Shown here piece by piece: positions 2,623 to 21,555 of a DNA stretch of 21,793 nt; the first letter of the stretch is position 1; each line of letters begins with the position of its first letter. The translations under genes were made by a program, and so were the position numbers. The notes under the pieces are model-generated. The model was not told the origin of the DNA. It ran no database searches and saw only the letters and a list, made by a program, of their open reading frames with translations. Origin of the DNA: a virus; IMG/VR virus record IMGVR_UViG_3300025138_000433, positions 1 to 21,793 of that record; one strand, 5' to 3'.

Positions 2623-5600
2623 TCATCTAAAAAATTTCTTCTTTCTTTTCTTCCTTCTCTTCTTACTATTCTTTTTACCTGTAATACCAGCACCAAGCTT
2701 AAACCTGTCTATTGCTGTTGTAAATTGCGTTGGAGTAAGTTGTCCTCCACTTTGTTCTCTAGCTTCTTCAATTGCTTGCTCAGCATTTCTTGGTTTTACA
2801 TTTACTCTACTAAAGAAAACTTTTTTATTTTTCTTACGCCTTTTTGGTTTAAATTTAGCAACTGTTCCTTCTCCGGTATCTAATGATGATTCTCCCGGAG
2901 CTTTCTTTACGAGCTTCGTTGGTGAAGTAAGTGTAATCTCAATTGGAGGACCTCCATCAAATGTAGTTAATGCAGTATTTTTTACACCTTCAAAGTAAGA
3001 ACGTATTCTAGCTTCTACATCATTCAGTAAATAATCAGTATCGACATTGTAAAAGGATGAAGAGAAAAAGTTACCAATCGAAGCACTATTTGCTGTTGTA
3101 TAATATTTTTCCATCCGTTGATTATTACCTCTCACAACTGATCCCGAAAGCACAGGTTGTAAGGTTTCAAAATACTTTGTATCCCCATAAGTTACCGAAG
3201 CTGTAGCATAAAATTTATCAGGCCTATTCAATCTCTGCCATAAAGATAGTTCATAACTACTATCTAAAAATTCTGAAGATGAGCCTTCAAAATTAGGAGC
3301 TGATCCTGAAATATTATAAACCGAAGAGCCTGATTCATAACTATACATATCTATTCTTCCATCATATGCAGAAAATTTTGTTACTTCGTATCTATTATCG
3401 TGATTGTATGAAGATGATATCGTAATTAAATCAATTCCTATATCTATAGATGAGCTATAGTAGAAGTTTTCAAACTTAGGAGTTTTACCTATTACTACTT
3501 TTGTTCTTTCAAATATGTTAGGTTCTACTAAAATGCCTAAATTTGCTTTAGCTCTAGCAGGAATCATTTTTCTTATTTGACCAAATAGAGATTGATCATA
3601 AAATTTTATTAGTCTGATATAATCCCAAAAATTATTTGGAGACTTATACTTTTTCCAATAATTATCAGCAACATGCTTTAATCCTCTATATTCTAATTCT
3701 TGCAAGTCTCTAGGATCACCTAAAAAGTTATCAAAATTTAAATTAGCTACAGATTCTATTATATCTGTATTTATTACATCTGTTGGTGCGAAATATACAC
3801 CGACTTTGTTTGAATCATTCGGAGCGGTATCATAAGCACTTACTGTAGCTCTATGCTTAGCATTCAAATTAAATCCAGCTTTAATTGGGTTTGCTTCAAT
3901 TCTTATTTTATTGGTGGTTCTTCTCATAGCACCGATGCTCGGTATATTACTCTTTGTTTCATCTACAACATTACTGAAAAAGTTTCCTGTAAATCCACTA
4001 TGAGATCCTGAATATGCATTGGTTGAATTAGCGCTGATGTCTCTAATACCATCAGTATCTGCGCTTAAATCGTTATTATCATCAAATGAATATCTTAATA
4101 TTAAATTACTATAAGAAGATGAAATAGAATTTCCGTTATAAGCCTTTGGATTTCCTACGTGGTTTCTAAAAGAGCCGGTGTTTAATACCTCTGTCCAATG
4201 TCTATATTCCATCATAGAACCACTAAATTGATCACCGACACCTACTATATCTCCACTACCACCTATATAAATTTCCCCATCATTGTTCCAACTTTGGTTG
4301 TATGATGATGATGCGGCTATATCAGTTACCATCGTAGATTTAGAATATAAATTTATTTTACTTCTGCTAGCATCATATTTACTTACATGCAGTTCAAATG
4401 ATTGAGATACATTTGGATTATCGCTTCCAGAAGTTCTTCTAACCATTACAGAAAAGAAATCTTTATCATATACAGGAAAGTTAGATGATGACATTTCCTT
4501 TAATCCATCAGAACCACTAATTTGAAAGGAAACGTAGCCGTAATTATCTATTGAATTATTATCTTTTAGTCTAATGAAAAAACTAGAAGATACATTAGGG
4601 CTAGTTGGAGCCTTTTCAACTAATATTTGATTTGAGCCCGTAGGAGTTCTGAATCTAAATTCTATAGTATCAGGCTTTCTTCCCGTTGAAGAGTCGTCAA
4701 CCCAAGGAGTTTTAACAAATTGAGCACCTCTAAAATCTAAAGCCTTTGTAAATTTTCTTCCAATTTCAAATTGAGGAGAAGCATTATCTGGCAAATCAGG
4801 TCCACCATACTCTTTAACTCTTAGAATTGTAGATGGTATTCCATAAGCACTTATCAATCCTTTAATAGCTCTAACGCTTCCTTTATTCTTTAAGTAGTAT
4901 GGCATGTTATTAACAATACGACTCATTATTTCTCTCGAAACATCCCTTTCCGGAACACTTGACAAGTTTGAAAATGAAGAACCAGTAACCTCTTTACCCA
5001 ATGCAAATCTAGCAAGAGAAATTGTATCCTTACCATCATTTAATTGCCATCCCAATGATTTAGCAACACTCATAAACAATTCTTTAGACATACCCTCTGT
5101 TAACTTCTCTCTTCTGTCGTGTATATCACCCATAGCTTTGATATAAATCCATATATTATCAAAATGGTGAGCTACCATATTTACTAAATCTACATAGGTT
5201 TTATTACCGGGATCAAATTTTATATGCTGTGGTATGATACTACTTAGCTTATTAAAGCTATTTTCATCATATAAAGAGCCGCTTTTATGTTGTGTATTAT
5301 ACCAAGCAGCTGCTTGTGATGATGTGGTATGTGCTAAGACATACTCATCTCCTACGGTTCCTGTTCCGGAAACTTTTGGATATGCGTTACTAAAGAACTC
5401 TCCAAGAGAACTTGAAACATATGATGATGATTCAAAATACATATACTTTTCAAATCCATCAAAATTATTTTTTAATTCGTCAATAGATGATAAAGCTAAT
5501 TTAACATCAGCCGTAGACCCACTAACTCCATTGTAAGATGAGCTTATTGTAGTATATCTTTCGATTTCTGTTAATTTATATTTAAAATTCTGAATCCTCT

Positions 5601-8600
5601 TTGTTACTGAACTAAAATTTATAAAATTCTTAAAATTGCTATAGTCTACATTTATTTCAACACTATCCATACTCTGACTTAAAAATTCATCTCTTAATAA
5701 ACCTGATACAGTTGTATCTTCACTTAGAATTTCAGTCTGACTTACATAATCGGTAGTTCTTCTTTGTATAGGACTTTCAGCATTCATCATATCCGGAGAC
5801 TTTAAAACTACATCGCCAATTTCCGTATCAACAAAATCTATAATTTCAATATCTTCTTCAATAACATCAGCCATTTCTTTGACAACAACGACCTCGTCTA
5901 ATCTTTCAATATCAGTTGGTAATGGTTCATATAACTTATAAACAACTGAATATGGATACGGCATTGTTACAAAATCTTTTTTGAAATTGGTAGTTAAAAG
6001 CATCCTATTTCCGAATTTTAGATAAGTTCTCATATCATACGGATTATATACAAGATAAGAAACTGAAAAGTTTGAAAAATTTATTGGATTGCTGTCCTCT
6101 TCATAATCAGTAACATTTTCATTTGTATTAATTAATTCTCTACCAGCATTATTCCAATGCTTGTCTACCATTACTTGAGTTCCTTCTTGCTGAACTTGAA
6201 CTATATTAGCTTCGTAATCTGCGTATATTGGTAAGTTTGTTTCTTGTGAATTTAATGTAAAATCCATAAATAAATTATCAACCCACGATATTCCATATGA
6301 GTTATCTATAGTCAATCCTTTCGCAGTATCCCAAGCATTATCTCCTCTTATCTGTAAGAAAAATTCAGCAGTTGTAAACCAATCGGATGGTATATCCATC
6401 TCCACCTCTACTGTATTCCACCCACCAGCATTTGGAGCATATGCAGGTTCACTTATAGTTTTATAAACATAGCTTATCGCAACATTATCTCTCGAACCCC
6501 AAACAGCTGCTTGCCCGTCCCAAATCCATTGTTCTCCTACGCTCAAAGCTCCATCCTTAGTCGGATTTAAATCGTAACTAAATTCACTACTACCATCATC
6601 ATATAATGCAAATTGATTATAATTATCAGCGCCTGGATTTCTACTACCAAATATAATATCCTCACCTTCAGTTCCTTTAATACCAGCATTAAAGAAAAAA
6701 CTATTTATAGGTGTAGAGTTCTGACCTCCGCTTTTCGCTACATAGACTTGGTCTCCGATTATACCGGTGAATTTATCGGAAAAGCCAGAATTCTCTGCAA
6801 ATGCAACCTCATATTCTCCGGGCAATCCTTCAAAAGCATCATCAAATGGTCTTGTTCTACCAAATCCATTACCCCATTCTGCAAAGAAAGAATCGTCAGC
6901 AGTAGAAGATTCATAAAAATCACCATCTCCATCCTTTACTAAATATACTTGGTTACTACCAAGTATTGAAAAAAAATGTCTCCAGCTCTTACCATTTCCT
7001 CTATCGAACCAAGTCTCAAACTTACCATCTCCAGAATTTAATGCGTCATTAAACCCCTCATCGATGTCTATCCAAGCTCTTAGACCTTTATTATAATCCG
7101 TAATCTTACGACCACCTCTCGGGTTTGTAATATTATCCAAATCTTGTCCCAATAGCTTTGCTATAAAAATTCTATTTTGATCTTCAGCGCCAGTTCCATT
7201 ACTATAAAATATTACAAAATGTTCTCGCCAAACTCCATCTCCTGTGCTCGCCGTTGGGTCTGATCCGGGATCTCTAAGTCTAGAAACACTCTGTATAAAT
7301 CCATATCTAAAAATGTCATCGAATAAAGAAACTGTAAATGTTTCTCCATCAATGACTTGAGTTGTGGTTACATTCCTAACCGCAGGAAATAAATCTTCAA
7401 ATCTATGTAACACTAATTTATTCGAGCTTACTGTAAATTCTACCTGTTTTACTTCCCAAACTAAATCATCCTTAAATAAAAATGCACCATCGCCATTCGT
7501 TGTTCCTGTTTGCCAACCTAAATTTTGACCTTGATTATTTATCCTTTGATACTTAGGCTGTCCAGCATTTTCTGTTTGATACGGATGACCATTAACAACA
7601 TTCTCTCCAGAATACTGAACACTACTGACAGTTCCATCAGGAGCATTAGGACTATTTGCTGCACCTTTTGTTACCCATTGAGCACCTGACCATTCCCATT
7701 CACCATCTTCGCTTAACGTTCCCTTTTTCCAATATGGATCTTTTGCAATATTTGGAATCCATACCCATTTTCGAGGAATAATAGTTATTCCTGTATTGAT
7801 TCTTGGTGATATGATTCCGATTGCCCAAGCTCCCGCTCCACCAAAATCTGATGTAGTTTGGCCTACTTCTCCGCTGAAGGCTGTTACGCCAAAATGTGGT
7901 ATGAGCTCTGCTTCTGTCAATGGAGGTTTAATTTCTATAGTTGATGCATTAGATTCGTTATTTTCTAAATAACCTTCAGGTATATTTATCGGCTTTGTTT
8001 CTGCTGGTGGCGATGCAAATGGATTAAAATATCCATCTGGTGGAGAAATTGGCTCAGACTCAATAAATCTTTCTGTGGGATATTTTAATTGAACATTAAC
8101 TCCTTTTCCAGCTACACTACTCTTTAAATCTAATCTAAAATTTATTGTATCGCCTATTCCAGCACCAAAATTAATCAATGATGGCATAGTTTGTCCAATT
8201 TGCATAAGTCTATGACCACTAGCACCATCCCAAGCTTCAAAGTCTTGATATAAATTATTTTGATCTATGAATTTTATGCAATTACCACCACTATTACCTT
8301 CACCCTTTACAATTTTTGCGTGATATCCAATAGCACTACTTCCAGCGTGAGGTTCACCATAATTAAAATATCCAGTAGTCCAATCATCTAATACAACAGC
8401 ATCGCTGTGTAGACTACTATCCCAACCAACATTTATAGTAGCGGGAGTTCCTGTGTTTGTATCTATTGTAACATTTTCTAATTCTGCATTTTTTATTGCA
8501 TTTAAATTTGTGCGAACTTTACTATTTTGATAACCTGTAAGATAAGCATTTGGAAGTTTAATAGTTCCACCTACCATATTTTCTGTGAATATAAACCCAC

Positions 8601-9360
8601 CATCCGTTGGAGTAATTCTTATTATTTGAGAGTTATCATATTCAATTTTTGTTTCCGGAGGACTTAGTGCACTTGCGCCTGGTCCAGGAGGTCCTATTAC
8701 CTCATATCCTTTAAACCCTATCTCAGCATCTATGTTTTCTGTTCTAATAGATTCCTGTAATTTTAAAAAATCTGTCTGATAGTTATATCCACCCAAAGAA
8801 CTATCTGAAATATTCTTAGCTGATAACCTAACTTCTTTTCTTGTTGGAGAAATTGTTTCAATTTTATATTTATAATCTTCTATTAATAGTTGTTCAGCCG
8901 CATCTGGATTTTTTTCATATTCTGCTTTATTCTTATTGAATATCTTACCTTCATCATTTACATATATATTTTCCGGAGCAGGAAATTGTGCAATTGGATA
9001 TATCTCATTTTCAAATCCATTTTTAGTTCTGAGTAAAACAGGATCTTCTTTACCAGCTAAATTTCTTACAAATCTATATCTAATTTTAAATTTACCAGTT
9101 TCGTAACCAAATAATTTTAGGTGAGATGATGGACTTAATTTTATGAAATTTTCATTTATACCTTCAATAGCATCATACTTTACTATGTCTCTATATTCAA
9201 TTAAATTGCCAGCTTCATCCAATAGTTCTACAAGAACATAATCTCTATCTGCATTACCACCTTCGCCCCAATATCCATTTTCATAAGGTTTATCTCCAAT
9301 CTTTTTGGTAATGCCACGAAGTAATCGTTGTTTATCTATATCATTTAGTTGGCTTGACAT
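2623..9360 (-). CDS. Giant gp7/gpI-like baseplate wedge-adhesin protein with LamG-like domain
   Basis: A 2245-residue protein with ATG at 9360 overlapping the previous stop (TAATG) behind a GGGAG Shine-Dalgarno. Regions in order: N-terminal domain (1-215); a GPPGPG hinge (223-228); a long Gly/Asp/aromatic-rich part (240-1100) with a three-fold repeat at about 680-880; an acidic/helical link (1150-1300); a block at 1375-1522 whose VNNMPYYLKNKGSVRAIKGL (1483-1502) and following YGIPSTILRVKEYGG resemble the C-terminal part of P2 gpI/T4 gp7-type proteins; a concanavalin/LamG-like beta-sandwich (about 1535-1765); a segment with IRKMIPARAKANLGILVEP (1929-1947); and a Lys/Arg-rich tail (2171-2245). 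T4 gp7 is about half this length. Position after gp25 and gp6 supports a wedge role; host binding by the LamG-like part is inference. Confidence 0.7.
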   Translation of the reverse strand: MSSQLNDIDKQRLLRGITKKIGDKPYENGYWGEGGNADRDYVLVELLDEAGNLIEYRDIVKYDAIEGINENFIKLSPSSHLKLFGYETGKFKIRYRFVRNLAGKEDPVLLRTKNGFENEIYPIAQFPAPENIYVNDEGKIFNKNKAEYEKNPDAAEQLLIEDYKYKIETISPTRKEVRLSAKNISDSSLGGYNYQTDFLKLQESIRTENIDAEIGFKGYEVIGPPGPGASALSPPETKIEYDNSQIIRITPTDGGFIFTENMVGGTIKLPNAYLTGYQNSKVRTNLNAIKNAELENVTIDTNTGTPATINVGWDSSLHSDAVVLDDWTTGYFNYGEPHAGSSAIGYHAKIVKGEGNSGGNCIKFIDQNNLYQDFEAWDGASGHRLMQIGQTMPSLINFGAGIGDTINFRLDLKSSVAGKGVNVQLKYPTERFIESEPISPPDGYFNPFASPPAETKPINIPEGYLENNESNASTIEIKPPLTEAELIPHFGVTAFSGEVGQTTSDFGGAGAWAIGIISPRINTGITIIPRKWVWIPNIAKDPYWKKGTLSEDGEWEWSGAQWVTKGAANSPNAPDGTVSSVQYSGENVVNGHPYQTENAGQPKYQRINNQGQNLGWQTGTTNGDGAFLFKDDLVWEVKQVEFTVSSNKLVLHRFEDLFPAVRNVTTTQVIDGETFTVSLFDDIFRYGFIQSVSRLRDPGSDPTASTGDGVWREHFVIFYSNGTGAEDQNRIFIAKLLGQDLDNITNPRGGRKITDYNKGLRAWIDIDEGFNDALNSGDGKFETWFDRGNGKSWRHFFSILGSNQVYLVKDGDGDFYESSTADDSFFAEWGNGFGRTRPFDDAFEGLPGEYEVAFAENSGFSDKFTGIIGDQVYVAKSGGQNSTPINSFFFNAGIKGTEGEDIIFGSRNPGADNYNQFALYDDGSSEFSYDLNPTKDGALSVGEQWIWDGQAAVWGSRDNVAISYVYKTISEPAYAPNAGGWNTVEVEMDIPSDWFTTAEFFLQIRGDNAWDTAKGLTIDNSYGISWVDNLFMDFTLNSQETNLPIYADYEANIVQVQQEGTQVMVDKHWNNAGRELINTNENVTDYEEDSNPINFSNFSVSYLVYNPYDMRTYLKFGNRMLLTTNFKKDFVTMPYPYSVVYKLYEPLPTDIERLDEVVVVKEMADVIEEDIEIIDFVDTEIGDVVLKSPDMMNAESPIQRRTTDYVSQTEILSEDTTVSGLLRDEFLSQSMDSVEINVDYSNFKNFINFSSVTKRIQNFKYKLTEIERYTTISSSYNGVSGSTADVKLALSSIDELKNNFDGFEKYMYFESSSYVSSSLGEFFSNAYPKVSGTGTVGDEYVLAHTTSSQAAAWYNTQHKSGSLYDENSFNKLSSIIPQHIKFDPGNKTYVDLVNMVAHHFDNIWIYIKAMGDIHDRREKLTEGMSKELFMSVAKSLGWQLNDGKDTISLARFALGKEVTGSSFSNLSSVPERDVSREIMSRIVNNMPYYLKNKGSVRAIKGLISAYGIPSTILRVKEYGGPDLPDNASPQFEIGRKFTKALDFRGAQFVKTPWVDDSSTGRKPDTIEFRFRTPTGSNQILVEKAPTSPNVSSSFFIRLKDNNSIDNYGYVSFQISGSDGLKEMSSSNFPVYDKDFFSVMVRRTSGSDNPNVSQSFELHVSKYDASRSKINLYSKSTMVTDIAASSSYNQSWNNDGEIYIGGSGDIVGVGDQFSGSMMEYRHWTEVLNTGSFRNHVGNPKAYNGNSISSSYSNLILRYSFDDNNDLSADTDGIRDISANSTNAYSGSHSGFTGNFFSNVVDETKSNIPSIGAMRRTTNKIRIEANPIKAGFNLNAKHRATVSAYDTAPNDSNKVGVYFAPTDVINTDIIESVANLNFDNFLGDPRDLQELEYRGLKHVADNYWKKYKSPNNFWDYIRLIKFYDQSLFGQIRKMIPARAKANLGILVEPNIFERTKVVIGKTPKFENFYYSSSIDIGIDLITISSSYNHDNRYEVTKFSAYDGRIDMYSYESGSSVYNISGSAPNFEGSSSEFLDSSYELSLWQRLNRPDKFYATASVTYGDTKYFETLQPVLSGSVVRGNNQRMEKYYTTANSASIGNFFSSSFYNVDTDYLLNDVEARIRSYFEGVKNTALTTFDGGPPIEITLTSPTKLVKKAPGESSLDTGEGTVAKFKPKRRKKNKKVFFSRVNVKPRNAEQAIEEAREQSGGQLTPTQFTTAIDRFKLGAGITGKKNSKKRRKKRKKKFFR
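6721..7323 (-). repeat. Three degenerate tandem protein repeats inside the giant gene
   Basis: At residues 680-735, 770-811 and 839-879 the giant protein repeats the pattern F-D/N-D-A/I-F/L ... G ... F/W ... h-x-G-x-Q-V-Y-x-x-K. The second and third copies align well (FNDAL...SILGSNQVYLVKDG against FDDAF...GIIGDQVYVAKSGG). The first is longer and more diverged (FDDIF...QNRIFIAK). Unit spacing is 90 then 69 residues. No matching long DNA repeat was apparent by eye, so this is an old duplication at protein level. Confidence 0.55.
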
Positions 9361-17347: not shown

Positions 17348-17469
17348 TATGTTTTCTCCTGTAATATTGTGATTAAAATAAGTTCAATCTCCTCACATCT
17401 TTTTTCTAAGTCCTTGACCTTATTGGTTAGATTTCTTACTGTTGTGAATTGTTTGTTATTCTTCTTCAT
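17347..17469 (-). CDS. 40-residue coiled-coil protein (small gene)
   Basis: The frame ATG 17469 to TAA 17347 encodes MKKNNKQFTTVRNLTNKVKD and a second half ending in LQEKT. Hydrophobic residues V11, L14, V18, L21, C25, I28, L32 and I35 follow a perfect 3-4 heptad spacing, so it should form a parallel coiled coil. Its ATG overlaps the HD gene's TAA and its TAA overlaps the next ATG, both TAATG. GGAG lies 7 nt before its start. Without it there would be a 119-nt hole in an otherwise gapless operon. The partner is unknown; the neighbouring membrane protein and HD protein are candidates. Confidence 0.7.
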   Translation of the reverse strand: MKKNNKQFTTVRNLTNKVKDLEKRCEEIELILITILQEKT

Positions 17470-18251
17470 TACTTATCTCCAAATAACTCTTCAAATAAAT
17501 CAGCCGACTTCTTAGTTAAGTTAGGTGTTTTATTCTCCTTAACCACCTCTTTCTTAGGTTCAACAGCCTTCTTAATATTATCACTTATCTTAGTGTTAGT
17601 TTCTTCGTCAAGCCTATTCCATAAATCAAATTCAACATGCGTTGCCATCATATCTGCTTGATGTAAGATGTAAGCTATGTTAGATTTCAGAGACCAATCG
17701 GGATTGTAAGACATTAAGTAAGTCTTATTAGCTTCCTCATACAAACCATCTGTTAGTCTTAATCCGATATACTCCCACTCTGTCATCTTAATACCGAAAT
17801 GATTAAGTAGATAAATCGCTCTATCTGTTACTGACATATATTGTAACTTAGGATTATGTTTGAATATCTCGCCTCTATTCTTACGATGCCACTCTGAGTC
17901 CTGTGGTATATAGTAATCTTCTGTCAAGTCACCCACCTTACCTAAGTCATGATGCATAGCAGCAAATATTAATTCTTCATCTGTAAAATTTATTTTAGCT
18001 CCATCTTCTTCCCATAGCTTCTTAATCTTTAAAGCACAATCGGTAACGTGCAATACGTGATCTACATAACCACCCACCATAGCATTGTGATATGCGGCTT
18101 TCCCACTCGCAGGCGCCACCGACATCCTATCTTCAAAGTATTTATACATCTCTAATAGATTGTCTTTACGCTCTTCGTCAAACGTATCTTCGATGAGTTT
18201 CATTAACCTATTCCAATTAGCCAATATCTTTTCTTCTGAAAGTTGTCTCAT
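17469..18251 (-). CDS. HD-domain phosphohydrolase
   Basis: A 260-residue protein with an HD-superfamily metal site: H65 (in GYVDHVLHV), H101-D102 (in AAMHHDLGK) and D200 (in YILHQADMMATH). The HD fold spans about 55-205. HD proteins of this kind are metal-dependent phosphohydrolases acting on nucleotides or nucleic acids; the substrate here cannot be told from sequence. Residues 222-248 are a Lys-rich, probably disordered linker, and the C-terminus KKSADLFEELFGDK resembles phage sliding-clamp-binding tails such as that of RB69 DNA polymerase (KKASLFDMFDF). This suggests recruitment to the replication/late-transcription clamp. ATG at 18251 is behind GAGG. It leads a TAATG chain into the coil gene. 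Confidence 0.8.
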   Translation of the reverse strand: MRQLSEEKILANWNRLMKLIEDTFDEERKDNLLEMYKYFEDRMSVAPASGKAAYHNAMVGGYVDHVLHVTDCALKIKKLWEEDGAKINFTDEELIFAAMHHDLGKVGDLTEDYYIPQDSEWHRKNRGEIFKHNPKLQYMSVTDRAIYLLNHFGIKMTEWEYIGLRLTDGLYEEANKTYLMSYNPDWSLKSNIAYILHQADMMATHVEFDLWNRLDEETNTKISDNIKKAVEPKKEVVKENKTPNLTKKSADLFEELFGDK

Positions 18252-18264: not shown

Positions 18265-18579
18265 TTATTTTTTACCAAATTGTTTATGTCTATCTTTATA
18301 TTCACCACCAACTTTATCTGTTGCGCTTACTCCGTATTCTTTTTGCATCTTTTCACTTATTTTAATTTTGTTTACACGTTTTTTCTCTCTCTCAATCATT
18401 TTATTTTGAATGTTTTGCCATGCTTTAAATTTTCCTAGGTTATGTTTTACAGCACCACAAACACAATTTTCTAATGTGTGTTGAAATCCTGGTGGTAAAC
18501 CTATTTTATTTCTTTTTGATATGGGAGCTCCATACTTTTTCATATATTTTTTTAAGGTCCTTCTCCCTTTGGCGTTCAT
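18265..18579 (-). CDS. Small basic protein (unknown)
   Basis: A 104-residue, strongly basic protein (many Lys/Arg throughout) with ATG at 18579 immediately after the glycosyltransferase stop and a GAGG Shine-Dalgarno inside that gene. It has one CVC motif (39-41, in ENCVCGAVKHNLGKF), a helical KAWQNIQNKMIEREKKRVNK stretch (52-71) and a basic C-terminus. No membrane segment is seen. The composition suits a nucleic-acid-binding or ribonucleoprotein-associated role, but no family is recognised. Only two cysteines are present, so a zinc finger is unlikely unless it dimerises. Confidence 0.65.
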   Translation of the reverse strand: MNAKGRRTLKKYMKKYGAPISKRNKIGLPPGFQHTLENCVCGAVKHNLGKFKAWQNIQNKMIEREKKRVNKIKISEKMQKEYGVSATDKVGGEYKDRHKQFGKK

Positions 18580-18591
18580 CTATCTAACCTC
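18580..18591 (-). repeat. Duplicated ribosome-binding cassette, copy 2
   Basis: GAGGTTAGATAG on the coding strand, overlapping the last codons and the TAG stop of the glycosyltransferase gene and serving as Shine-Dalgarno for the 104-residue gene. It shares 11 nt with the element before the HD gene. Confidence 0.45.
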
Positions 18592-19923
18592 ATATCTATT
18601 TTTTGTAAATCTTATTGTAGGTTCATTTCTTAACCTATTACGATAGCCGCTAAAGGATATCCTCACACCCCAACCAAGATGTTCTAATATTTGTTTTCTA
18701 GTAACTGATTTCTTTTTATGGATAAAATCTACAACCTTTTTGTAAGACTCTGTATCTTCTTTTAACATTGATAAGCCATCAGTTGTTTCATTAATCATAT
18801 TATTAAATTGATGTATAGCTTTTTCCCATTTACCTTTTTCAAATCTATTTAAAGCTTTCTCAGAATATTTTTCTCTCAGTAAGTCACTATCTAAGAAAGA
18901 TTCTATGGTATCTATTAGTGCATCATCAACATCATAGTAGTAAACGCCATCGTCACCTGCGAGTTCGTGATAACTCCCATCATCTGAAAATAAATAAGGA
19001 ACTCCCACGCTCATACCATCAGTAGCGGATATAGCCCACCCTTCATACTTTTGCCTACAACATACACCGACTCGACAAGAAGATAGCTTAGAGAAGTAAC
19101 CTACTCTATCAAACTTCTCATTGGTTATGTATTCTCTTTCTCTACTTTCTGCAAGCGGCACCCATACTTCAAAGTCTTGTCTCTTCTCCCATAACTTATC
19201 CATCTGTTCTAAAAACCACGGATAGTTTTTGTATGTATGTGGACGATGATTATAAACAATAATCTTTTTATCAGTAGTTTGTTTTTCGTATTTAGGTGTT
19301 TCCCATCCAAGGTATTGTGGTTCTAATATCTTATCTAACTTAGCTACCACATCATCATTAAAATATTCCTTAGCATTCTTCAATACCAAATCTTTTTGAG
19401 CTTGTGTATTAATACCACACTTACTCATCTGTAAAAGACCAACTATATTGTAAGCTAAACCAACCTGATATTCATAATTGGTAATCTCTTTAAACTCTGT
19501 CCAATGAGTATAACCTATGATGGCTGGTGATATGTTGGTAGAGTTATATAATAGATTCTTTAGATTACCTGTATGTTCCGGCAGATGAGAATACACAATA
19601 TCATAATCATTTTCTTTCCATTTAAGACCAGCGAATACTTCCTTATATGGAAAAGCCATTCTCATAGAATTAGGATAACTGATTTGAGGAGCTATAATCT
19701 GTTCTGTATTCTCAAAGTCTAAACTATTGATATGAGATGGAGATATTATTGTAAAGAATAAATCATCACGTATCTTATTCAGTTCTTTAATGATGTTGCA
19801 GAGGACAACAACATAAGAATCCTTTTCCAAGTCCTTTTGAAAGGTAATATTTGGATATACAAGTATTTTGTATTTGTATTCTTTGTCGTTGTCCTCAACA
19901 TCTGTAAATTGAAATATGTTCAA
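18580..19923 (-). CDS. GT-B glycosyltransferase with winged-helix-like C-terminal domain
   Basis: A 447-residue protein. The start is TTG (19923), 6 nt after a GAGG Shine-Dalgarno and 3 nt after the GHKL gene; no Met follows until residue 88. Residues about 15-205 form the N-terminal Rossmann-like half. Residues 220-375 form the donor half, with YNHRPHTYKNYPWFLEQ (224-240) and a GT4-like signature EGWAISATDGMSVGVP (294-309), where the usual E-x7-E is E294-x7-D302. Then SDDGSYHELAGDDG (313-326) fits the nucleotide-sugar site. Residues 390-447 (KKVVDFIHKKKSVTRKQIL, a turn, IRFTKNRYEV) look like a winged helix. A sugar transferase with a DNA-binding tail suggests DNA-base glycosylation, which would protect the genome; the acceptor is inferred. 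Confidence 0.75.
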   Translation of the reverse strand: MNIFQFTDVEDNDKEYKYKILVYPNITFQKDLEKDSYVVVLCNIIKELNKIRDDLFFTIISPSHINSLDFENTEQIIAPQISYPNSMRMAFPYKEVFAGLKWKENDYDIVYSHLPEHTGNLKNLLYNSTNISPAIIGYTHWTEFKEITNYEYQVGLAYNIVGLLQMSKCGINTQAQKDLVLKNAKEYFNDDVVAKLDKILEPQYLGWETPKYEKQTTDKKIIVYNHRPHTYKNYPWFLEQMDKLWEKRQDFEVWVPLAESREREYITNEKFDRVGYFSKLSSCRVGVCCRQKYEGWAISATDGMSVGVPYLFSDDGSYHELAGDDGVYYYDVDDALIDTIESFLDSDLLREKYSEKALNRFEKGKWEKAIHQFNNMINETTDGLSMLKEDTESYKKVVDFIHKKKSVTRKQILEHLGWGVRISFSGYRNRLRNEPTIRFTKNRYEVR

Positions 19924-19926
19924 ATA

Positions 19927-21555
19927 TTACCTCAATACCTTATTAAGATGATAAGTCATATCTTCAACTTCTTCTTTCATTTTATCTGTTATTTCTTCGC
20001 CAGCTAAGCATCCACTTACCTCAACAGCATCAGCAGCTTTGGTAAGACCAACATGTATTTTAGCATAAATTTGCCAAAGTAGCGAATCCATTTCTGGAGC
20101 AGACGCGGCTCCTTTTGGAAGCATCGCTCCCCACTCAGTATCTAAATTGAGTGTTATATGTAGAACACCATCATCGCTTTTAGTCCAAGTATACATACTA
20201 TTGGCTCTACCATCACCATCAAAATTCCAACTGACTAACTTTTTATTACCAGTTTTTGTTTTTCCACTTCTTGTGCGACCTGTTTTTTTAGGAGTAACGC
20301 CAGCTCCATTTGGGTCTCTACCGTTTGATATTCTTTTTTCTACTAGTTTACCAGTATTACCTGTAGCTAATGATGGTAAAGCCATTTTCTTTAGCTTAGA
20401 ATTGAATCTATCATTTATTTGTTTAAGTAACTTTTTCTCATCACCACTTAACTTTTTACCACGAGTCTTAACCCATTCTTCAATAAACTCCTTACATTCA
20501 CGACGCACCACTCGAACTAAATCCTCTAAGATAGGACTGTTTTCTGGTAACTTTACTTTAGCTTTGTTAACCTCTATACCACACTTTTTCAGTTTATGAT
20601 GTGGTATCGTAATCTCAAATCTTACATTCTTAAGTTTATCTAATCTAGCAGTGCCTGGAAATAAGCATTTACCAGTATTCACATACCTACCACCTACTCT
20701 GATATACAACCCAGAGTTTTCTCTAAGAGGACCGGGAGAGTTATTAGCTCTAACATCCCAATGATACTTCAAAAGATTACTTTCATCAAAATTTGGCATA
20801 AACTTTAGAACTTCCATATCTAAAACTTCGTTTTCAATTTTAACCTTTACAGTTTTACGATACACTCCTTCAGCTTCACCCCACTTAGTATTTCTGTAAA
20901 GAGGGTCTATAAAATCTACTTTTTTATCATTTACAGTTATTTCAAAAGGTTTTTTGTTGCGTTCTGATGTTCTGTCAAAATTTGGAAAATATGTAACTCC
21001 TGCCTTTTTTATTAGTGCTGATTCTGTTAATCTAGCTCTTACTTCATCTATTTTGATAGAAGTGCCGGGCTTTTTATCATATTCAACTCTTTCTGGTAAA
21101 ATTTTTCCACTAACGCCATCGCGCGTTAATGTAACTGGCATAAGAGTGGTTTCTTTACTTTCTTTATGGGATGACTTAATATTAATATTTGATTCAATAC
21201 ATAAGTTGATTATTGCAGCAGTTCCACCAGAACCATAGTTACCAATAGACTCTTCTTTATAGTCGGTCATATCTTTTGGTGTTCCAAGACCTACAAATGA
21301 CGGAATCATACTTTCCCCGTCAACACCAGTCCCATTATCTTCTATACTAAACTGATATGAAGTATAATCTTTATTATTAGCTTTAGGAATTTTACTCCAA
21401 TCTAATTTGATTGTAGATGACTTAGCATCAATTGAATTGTCTATAAGTTCAAATATGGAAGATTCTGTTGACCAGCCCATACTTCTTAAACCTTCATAGA
21501 TAAAGCGGTCGTATACTAGAAAGCCGTTGATTGGCTCCATTTTCTTTTTACTCAT
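19927..21555 (-). CDS. GHKL-fold ATPase (MORC/MutL/Hsp90-like N-domain)
   Basis: A 542-residue protein, ATG at 21555 behind AAAGGAG. The Bergerat-fold ATP site is complete: N box ELIDNSIDA (36-44, catalytic Glu and Mg-binding Asn), G1 box EDNGTGVD (72-79) and G2 box GNYGSGGTAAI (105-115). Residues 225-345 look like an S5-type transducer domain, with VNKAKVKL (329-336) offering a lysine where GHKL enzymes contact ATP. Residues 395-440 are a Lys/Gly/Thr-rich linker, and 440-542 form a further alpha/beta domain. These ATPases dimerise when ATP binds, usually to clamp nucleic acid or partners. T4 gp39-type topoisomerase II is unlikely: no Toprim motif is seen. The biological role is unknown. Confidence 0.75.
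   Translation of the reverse strand: MSKKKMEPINGFLVYDRFIYEGLRSMGWSTESSIFELIDNSIDAKSSTIKLDWSKIPKANNKDYTSYQFSIEDNGTGVDGESMIPSFVGLGTPKDMTDYKEESIGNYGSGGTAAIINLCIESNINIKSSHKESKETTLMPVTLTRDGVSGKILPERVEYDKKPGTSIKIDEVRARLTESALIKKAGVTYFPNFDRTSERNKKPFEITVNDKKVDFIDPLYRNTKWGEAEGVYRKTVKVKIENEVLDMEVLKFMPNFDESNLLKYHWDVRANNSPGPLRENSGLYIRVGGRYVNTGKCLFPGTARLDKLKNVRFEITIPHHKLKKCGIEVNKAKVKLPENSPILEDLVRVVRRECKEFIEEWVKTRGKKLSGDEKKLLKQINDRFNSKLKKMALPSLATGNTGKLVEKRISNGRDPNGAGVTPKKTGRTRSGKTKTGNKKLVSWNFDGDGRANSMYTWTKSDDGVLHITLNLDTEWGAMLPKGAASAPEMDSLLWQIYAKIHVGLTKAADAVEVSGCLAGEEITDKMKEEVEDMTYHLNKVLR

Follow-up and report, generated by a model that had tools for sequence, protein, structure and literature searches.

A GT4-fold glycosyltransferase with a C-terminal winged helix in uncultured marine viruses, a candidate DNA-base glycosyltransferase

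Introduction

The T4 alpha-glucosyltransferase (a-gt, GT72) is a phage DNA glucosyltransferase of the GT-B type, and to our knowledge it carries no fused winged helix. The T4 b-gt (GT63) and T6-type TAGT (PF20691) enzymes also transfer a sugar to a DNA base. In T4 the gene order is 43, imm.1, imm, 42, b-gt, segA, uvsX, 40, 41. TAGT of phage T6 is found at the position of T4 b-gt (PMC13390438), and the interval between the DNA polymerase gene and uvsX is thus a known site of DNA glycosyltransferases. According to PMC10853773, DUF4338/DruA is a domain of the GNAT type. Mom, also a GNAT, acylates adenine at N6 (PMC7824862).

The present paper describes a glycosyltransferase (GT) encoded in a window which is a complete IMG/VR record of 21.8 kb with baseplate-type tail genes, one of them matching a baseplate wedge protein.

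The gene and its neighbours in the window

The features of the gene and of its neighbours are collected in Table 1. The GT open reading frame begins with a TTG codon at 19923, with GAGG 6 nt upstream, and this codon lies 3 nt past the end of the gene upstream, which encodes a GHKL ATPase. The relatives of the GT start at the same point with ATG, TTG or GTG.

Table 1 Features of the GT gene and adjacent genes (positions in the window)
Feature	Position	Strand	Evidence
GT4-fold glycosyltransferase with C-terminal winged helix, 447 aa	18580..19923	-	ORF, Pfam, AF2, fold comparison
GT-B core, residues 15-385	18769..19881	-	AF2 pLDDT 88.7; VIA Z
Donor-site motif E294-x7-D302	19018..19044	-	46-sequence alignment; D302 alone conserved
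Winged-helix domain, residues 392-446	18586..18750	-	Predicted structures, fold matches
Helix 3 SGYRNRL, residues 425-431, recognition-helix position	18631..18651	-	DSSP on AF2 model
Ribosome-binding-site-like GAGGT	19929..19933	-	Sequence; overlaps stop of upstream gene
GHKL (HATPase_c_3) ATPase, 542 aa	19927..21555	-	Pfam E 6.7e-14
Basic protein of 104 aa, encoded between the GT and HD-domain genes	18265..18579	-	No family match
HD-domain hydrolase-like protein	17469..18251	-	phrog_5889 E 7.9e-13, HD E 0.003

The HD-domain gene is usually the next one downstream of the GT in the clade of the window (clustered in 62 loci), and its product is a possible nucleotidase partner. It follows the GT even in locus L064, where the other neighbours differ. 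No family match was found for the basic protein encoded between the two in the window. The GHKL ATPase gene fills the slot between DruA and GT that is variable among the relatives, and the contig ends before the position at which DruA would be expected. The ATPase shows weak similarity to MzaB, and a search of cultured phages at E 1e-4 found nothing like it. A gene located downstream of those for the baseplate (2623-9360, minus strand) encodes 2,245 aa; judging by size and position, our guess is that its product is probably a very large tail protein or adhesin.

The glycosyltransferase core

The initial annotation had read the gene as a glycosyltransferase fused to a winged-helix-like domain, and this was confirmed by the coordinates, Pfam, AF2 and fold matches. 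Pfam Glycos_transf_1 (PF00534) matched above the cut-off (E 2.6e-9) over residues 281-358, i.e. the C-lobe only. PHROGs and NCBIfam gave nothing useful for the window protein, nor did PHROGs for its family, and profile searches of PDB sequences with the family alignments gave only chance-level or partial matches. The AF2 model built from a 46-sequence alignment had a pLDDT of 88.7 and a pTM of 0.87. When the core was compared with solved GT4 enzymes, VIA Z scores of 24-27 over approximately 330-348 residues were obtained. The best match was 7qsg (Z 27.2 over 341 residues, rmsd 3.5), and BshA and MshA scored about 26. In the predicted structure the core is a GT-B fold of the GT4 type, with two Rossmann-like lobes as in the solved enzymes. 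A GT of phage HY126 (PDB 9ir0/9iqz) scored much like the remaining GT4 folds; a literature search by name found no paper naming it. Homology to T4 BGT and AGT was rejected, as hhalign gave probabilities of 3.1 % and 0.3 %, respectively, and a plain GT4 control scored higher.

A GT4-like donor signature, E294-x7-D302, had been noted earlier. It is literally present and D302 occurs in 46 of 46 sequences, the second position of the motif thus being Asp, but E-x7-E is not conserved in the family, the first Glu being found in only 11 of the 46 relatives (column 294: S12 E11 G11 A7 T2 K2 D1). Invariant in the 46 sequences are D35, S36, R88, L114-E116, N172, N225-H226-R227, D250, W296, D302 and G303. 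The enzyme thus has the appearance of an active one whose donor site has diverged.

The C-terminal winged helix

The C-terminus of the AF2 model contains helices at 392-404, 409-416 and 425-431 and strands at 437-440 and 444-446, and the domain folded alone gives the same structure (pLDDT 84.2). Its fold matches are mostly winged helices (Zbeta of ZBP1, TFIIE, MecI, MarR), with Zbeta of ZBP1 at the top (rmsd 1.9 over 57 residues, Z 7.4, a value below 8 and hence indicative of the fold class, not of a specific family). Residues 392-446 are confidently modelled as a winged helix with H1-(b)-H2-H3-b-b topology. The initial annotation had read the last ~58 residues in the same way, and the other outcome it had considered, a non-DNA-binding bundle, does not appear in the predicted fold. 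Its choice of recognition helix has to be corrected: SVTRKQILEHLG is helix 2, and by topology the recognition-helix position falls on helix 3, preceded by W418. Y427, R428 and L431 are found in 42 of the 46 relatives, the remaining four (among L076-L081) being without the domain.

The net charge of residues 386-447 is +9 in the window protein, and all members with the domain have a basic one (+4 to +12); for the GT core of the window protein the net charge is -17. The charge is an indirect sign that the winged helix would bind DNA. Pairwise comparisons with near relatives gave a dN/dS of approximately 0-0.12, which indicates that the domain is under purifying selection and hence is not a chance extension. 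Pfam contains no family for it, one member matching TP6A_N weakly (E 6.5e-4). The domain was not found in other proteins of the collected loci, and cultured phage records gave chance matches only.

Distribution of the fusion

The C-domain alone was searched in viral contigs, and the best 80 of 121 and best 80 of 215 matches led to 157 loci. Among these matches the domain belongs to this GT in 150 loci, and in the other seven the open reading frame is cut by the contig end; since only the best matches were considered, rarer contexts of the domain may be missed. The search for homologues proposed in the initial annotation thus returned the same fusion in about 150 of the loci listed, and the fusion of GT and winged helix defines a family. 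It was found in uncultured marine viruses, and the GT had no match in 50,697 cultured-phage records. Relatives in viral contigs with at least ~40 % identity carry the C-terminal domain. The distant members L076-L081 (32-37 % identity) end near residue 378 and are without the winged helix, which is therefore not essential to GT chemistry.

One contig (L083:9968-13344) was binned as Acidiferrobacteraceae and contains cellular genes. Its GT faces, in opposite orientation, an adjacent DruA-containing gene of 621 aa, the N-terminal part of which reads like ParB. This contig is possibly a prophage or chimeric.

Gene context

In 97 of the 103 informative loci a gene of the DruA family (Pfam PF14236; E 1.6e-27 for L005) was found at most four genes from the GT. 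The loci are related and thus do not represent 97 independent events. A locus was regarded as informative if it had a DruA match or an upstream flank of at least 2.5 kb (103 among 163 loci). The DruA-GT pair persists in several arrangements: it may form part of the replisome operon, adjoin the clamp loader or, in the window clade, precede the HD/baseplate block, and in L077-L081 its two genes flank the DNA polymerase and clamp. In the last case the DNA polymerase directly follows the GT, and then come the clamp and DruA where the locus extends far enough. Homology between DruA and Mom was rejected (profile comparison probability 0.4 %). A DruA-family protein of Synechococcus phage S-SCSM2R (PQ898602.1, 133706-134827) is annotated as 'methylcarbamoylase mom', despite the dissimilarity of the two profiles.

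The slot between DruA and GT is variable. It contains Mom (PF25680, E 3.6e-40) in L024, a D12 DNA adenine methylase in L002, and GmrSD_N-HNH or, judged by eye, proteins resembling GIY-YIG or ParB/nuclease in some loci. Nuclease genes of the GmrSD/NsnA-like-HNH, GIY-YIG-like and ParB-like types replace each other in L012:1350-3119, L198:812-2338, L063:1-1581 and others. The slot thus seems to be a hot spot, which may be compared with segA next to b-gt in T4.

Further modification genes were also met. Mom was above the cut-off on 13 of 66 contigs, beside the GT or elsewhere, and TAGT (PF20691) adjoins the GT, after it in L065 and before it in L052. 2OG-Fe(II) oxygenases (PF13640) matched on 10 of 39 contigs. 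L081 (5181-7077 and 9253-11110), and likewise L077, has the GT without winged helix grouped with a pair of Mom-family genes and a glycosyltransferase of the PLOD type (PF25342, E 1.2e-29), all upstream of the DNA polymerase. These may form a cluster for hypermodification in several steps. Some loci (L082:2621-3670, L220:750-1802) have another GT4-type glycosyltransferase adjoining the GT, which suggests the addition of a second sugar.

In the L172-L251 clade DNA polymerase B is followed in turn by DruA, the slot, GT, MazG, UvsX/RecA, 2OG-Fe(II) oxygenase and DnaB-type helicase, with certain elements absent from certain loci. The GT is thus located between the DNA polymerase and uvsX in this clade, and elsewhere in the window's own clade. 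Pelagibacter phage HTVC008M has the polymerase, DruA, a small hypothetical gene, uvsX and the helicase, without a GT.

No thymidylate-synthase-type hydroxymethylase (PF00303) was found on 73 contigs, all of which may be fragments, in a search whose positive controls matched and which included contigs of 188, 165 and 126 kb and several of more than 90 kb. The T-even hmC route is thus not supported. No Tet_JBP was found on 26 contigs, in a search whose control matched nowhere, and no in-situ hydroxylase was common to all contigs tested.

Discussion

With moderate confidence we regard the protein as a probable DNA-base glycosyltransferase of phages that docks on DNA through its winged helix. DNA binding, DNA as the acceptor and an anti-restriction role are inferred, as parts of the following picture. 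The core, with its predicted GT4 fold, would bind a nucleotide sugar, and D302 and N225-H226-R227 would be in the donor site of the C-lobe, as judged from the GT4 motif. With its wing and its basic helix 3 the winged helix would face the double-stranded DNA of the phage and hold the enzyme on its substrate during glycosylation of a hydroxyl- or otherwise acceptor-bearing base, and the sugar may mask the phage DNA from host nucleases. The acceptor is probably not 5hmC or 5hmU derived from thymidylate synthase. A modifier encoded nearby could produce it in situ; the first candidate for this is the DruA-family GNAT, and the 2OG-Fe(II) oxygenases come second.

That the GT probably puts a sugar on viral DNA is indicated by its occurrence, in one clade, at the position of the DNA-glucosylating gene of T4; this is stronger evidence than the initial annotation had. 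The C-domain occurs only with this GT among the matches listed, is basic in all members and is under purifying selection, and DruA is a near-constant neighbour, with Mom, TAGT or D12 DNA methylase sometimes adjacent. All these, and the folds of the two domains, argue for DNA-base glycosylation. The earlier idea that sugar transfer and a DNA module together serve base glycosylation is partly supported: the winged helix, its basic charge and the phage-only setting of DNA replication and modification genes speak for it, but the hydroxymethyl-pyrimidine route is not supported. Against glycosylation of DNA bases speak the lack of a hydroxymethylase and of a common in-situ hydroxylase on the contigs searched, the members without a winged helix, the similarity to BGT and AGT at the generic GT-B level only, and the fact that RNA and proteins, too, can be ligands of winged helices. 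Moreover, the gene of the window clade is outside the replisome operon, and the contigs may be fragments.

The protein could also act on the cell surface or the virion (O-antigen conversion, superinfection exclusion, capsid or tail glycosylation), with the winged helix as a protein-interaction module. The nearest solved folds are indeed GT4 enzymes acting on small molecules, lipids and polysaccharides, GT4-type GTs occur in phage polysaccharide clusters (PMC7824862), and in the window clade the gene is upstream of baseplate genes. However, the inspected loci contained neither capsule or teichoic clusters, the setting that had been named as contrary evidence, nor a cluster of sugar-activation, flippase or polymerase genes. 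The conserved basic winged helix, the replisome operon position and the DruA, Mom, TAGT and methylase neighbours also make such a role unlikely. RNA binding is known for winged helices, and ribosomal proteins were among the Foldseek matches of the C-domain, as would suit an RNA or tRNA glycosyltransferase reading RNA structure during takeover of host translation, but as no tRNA was found in the window and the neighbours are DNA replication and modification genes, we regard this as quite improbable. The least probable is a sugar-responsive regulator, in which a catalytically altered GT senses a nucleotide sugar and controls promoters via its winged helix: the rarity of Glu in column 294 and the MecI, MarR and ROK regulator-like fold matches would fit it, but the invariant residues from D35 to G303 are as in an active enzyme.

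Within the preferred reading, a DNA-base glycosyltransferase, a more specific and tentative scheme, which we do not expect to hold as a whole, is that the DruA-family GNAT provides a base with an acyl-type acceptor, to which the GT4-winged-helix enzyme encoded next to it adds the sugar in situ, independently of hydroxymethylase. The slot genes (nuclease, Mom, methylase, GHKL ATPase) would then be interchangeable, some possibly forming an attack arm against unmodified DNA.

Should the DNA-base reading be correct, uncultured phages that are abundant in the sea have arrived anew at DNA glycosylation, by way of a GT4-type enzyme equipped with a DNA-reading domain and apparently with no use of the T-even hydroxymethyl pathway. 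This enzyme would then be the one to test for a glycosylated base; the reading would also open the function of DruA/DUF4338 to biochemical study and provide a new tool for labelling modified DNA.

Compared with described proteins, the same GT core is found in A0A6J5M983 from an uncultured Caudovirales phage (366 aa, 31 % identity, TM 0.70-0.85) and in L076-L081, in both cases without the winged helix. The retaining GT4 enzymes MshA, BshA, PimA and the methylmannose transferase 7qsg share the fold at 12-15 % identity, and the second acidic residue of their donor site is retained in the family as Asp. In contrast to them, the family mostly lacks the first Glu of EX7E, carries a DNA-binding-type C-terminal domain and occurs on phage-type contigs only. 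Compared to T4 b-gt, the GT has an additional winged helix and no gp42-type hydroxymethylase was found with it on the 73 contigs, whereas the GT of the replisome-linked clade shares its genomic interval with both b-gt and TAGT.
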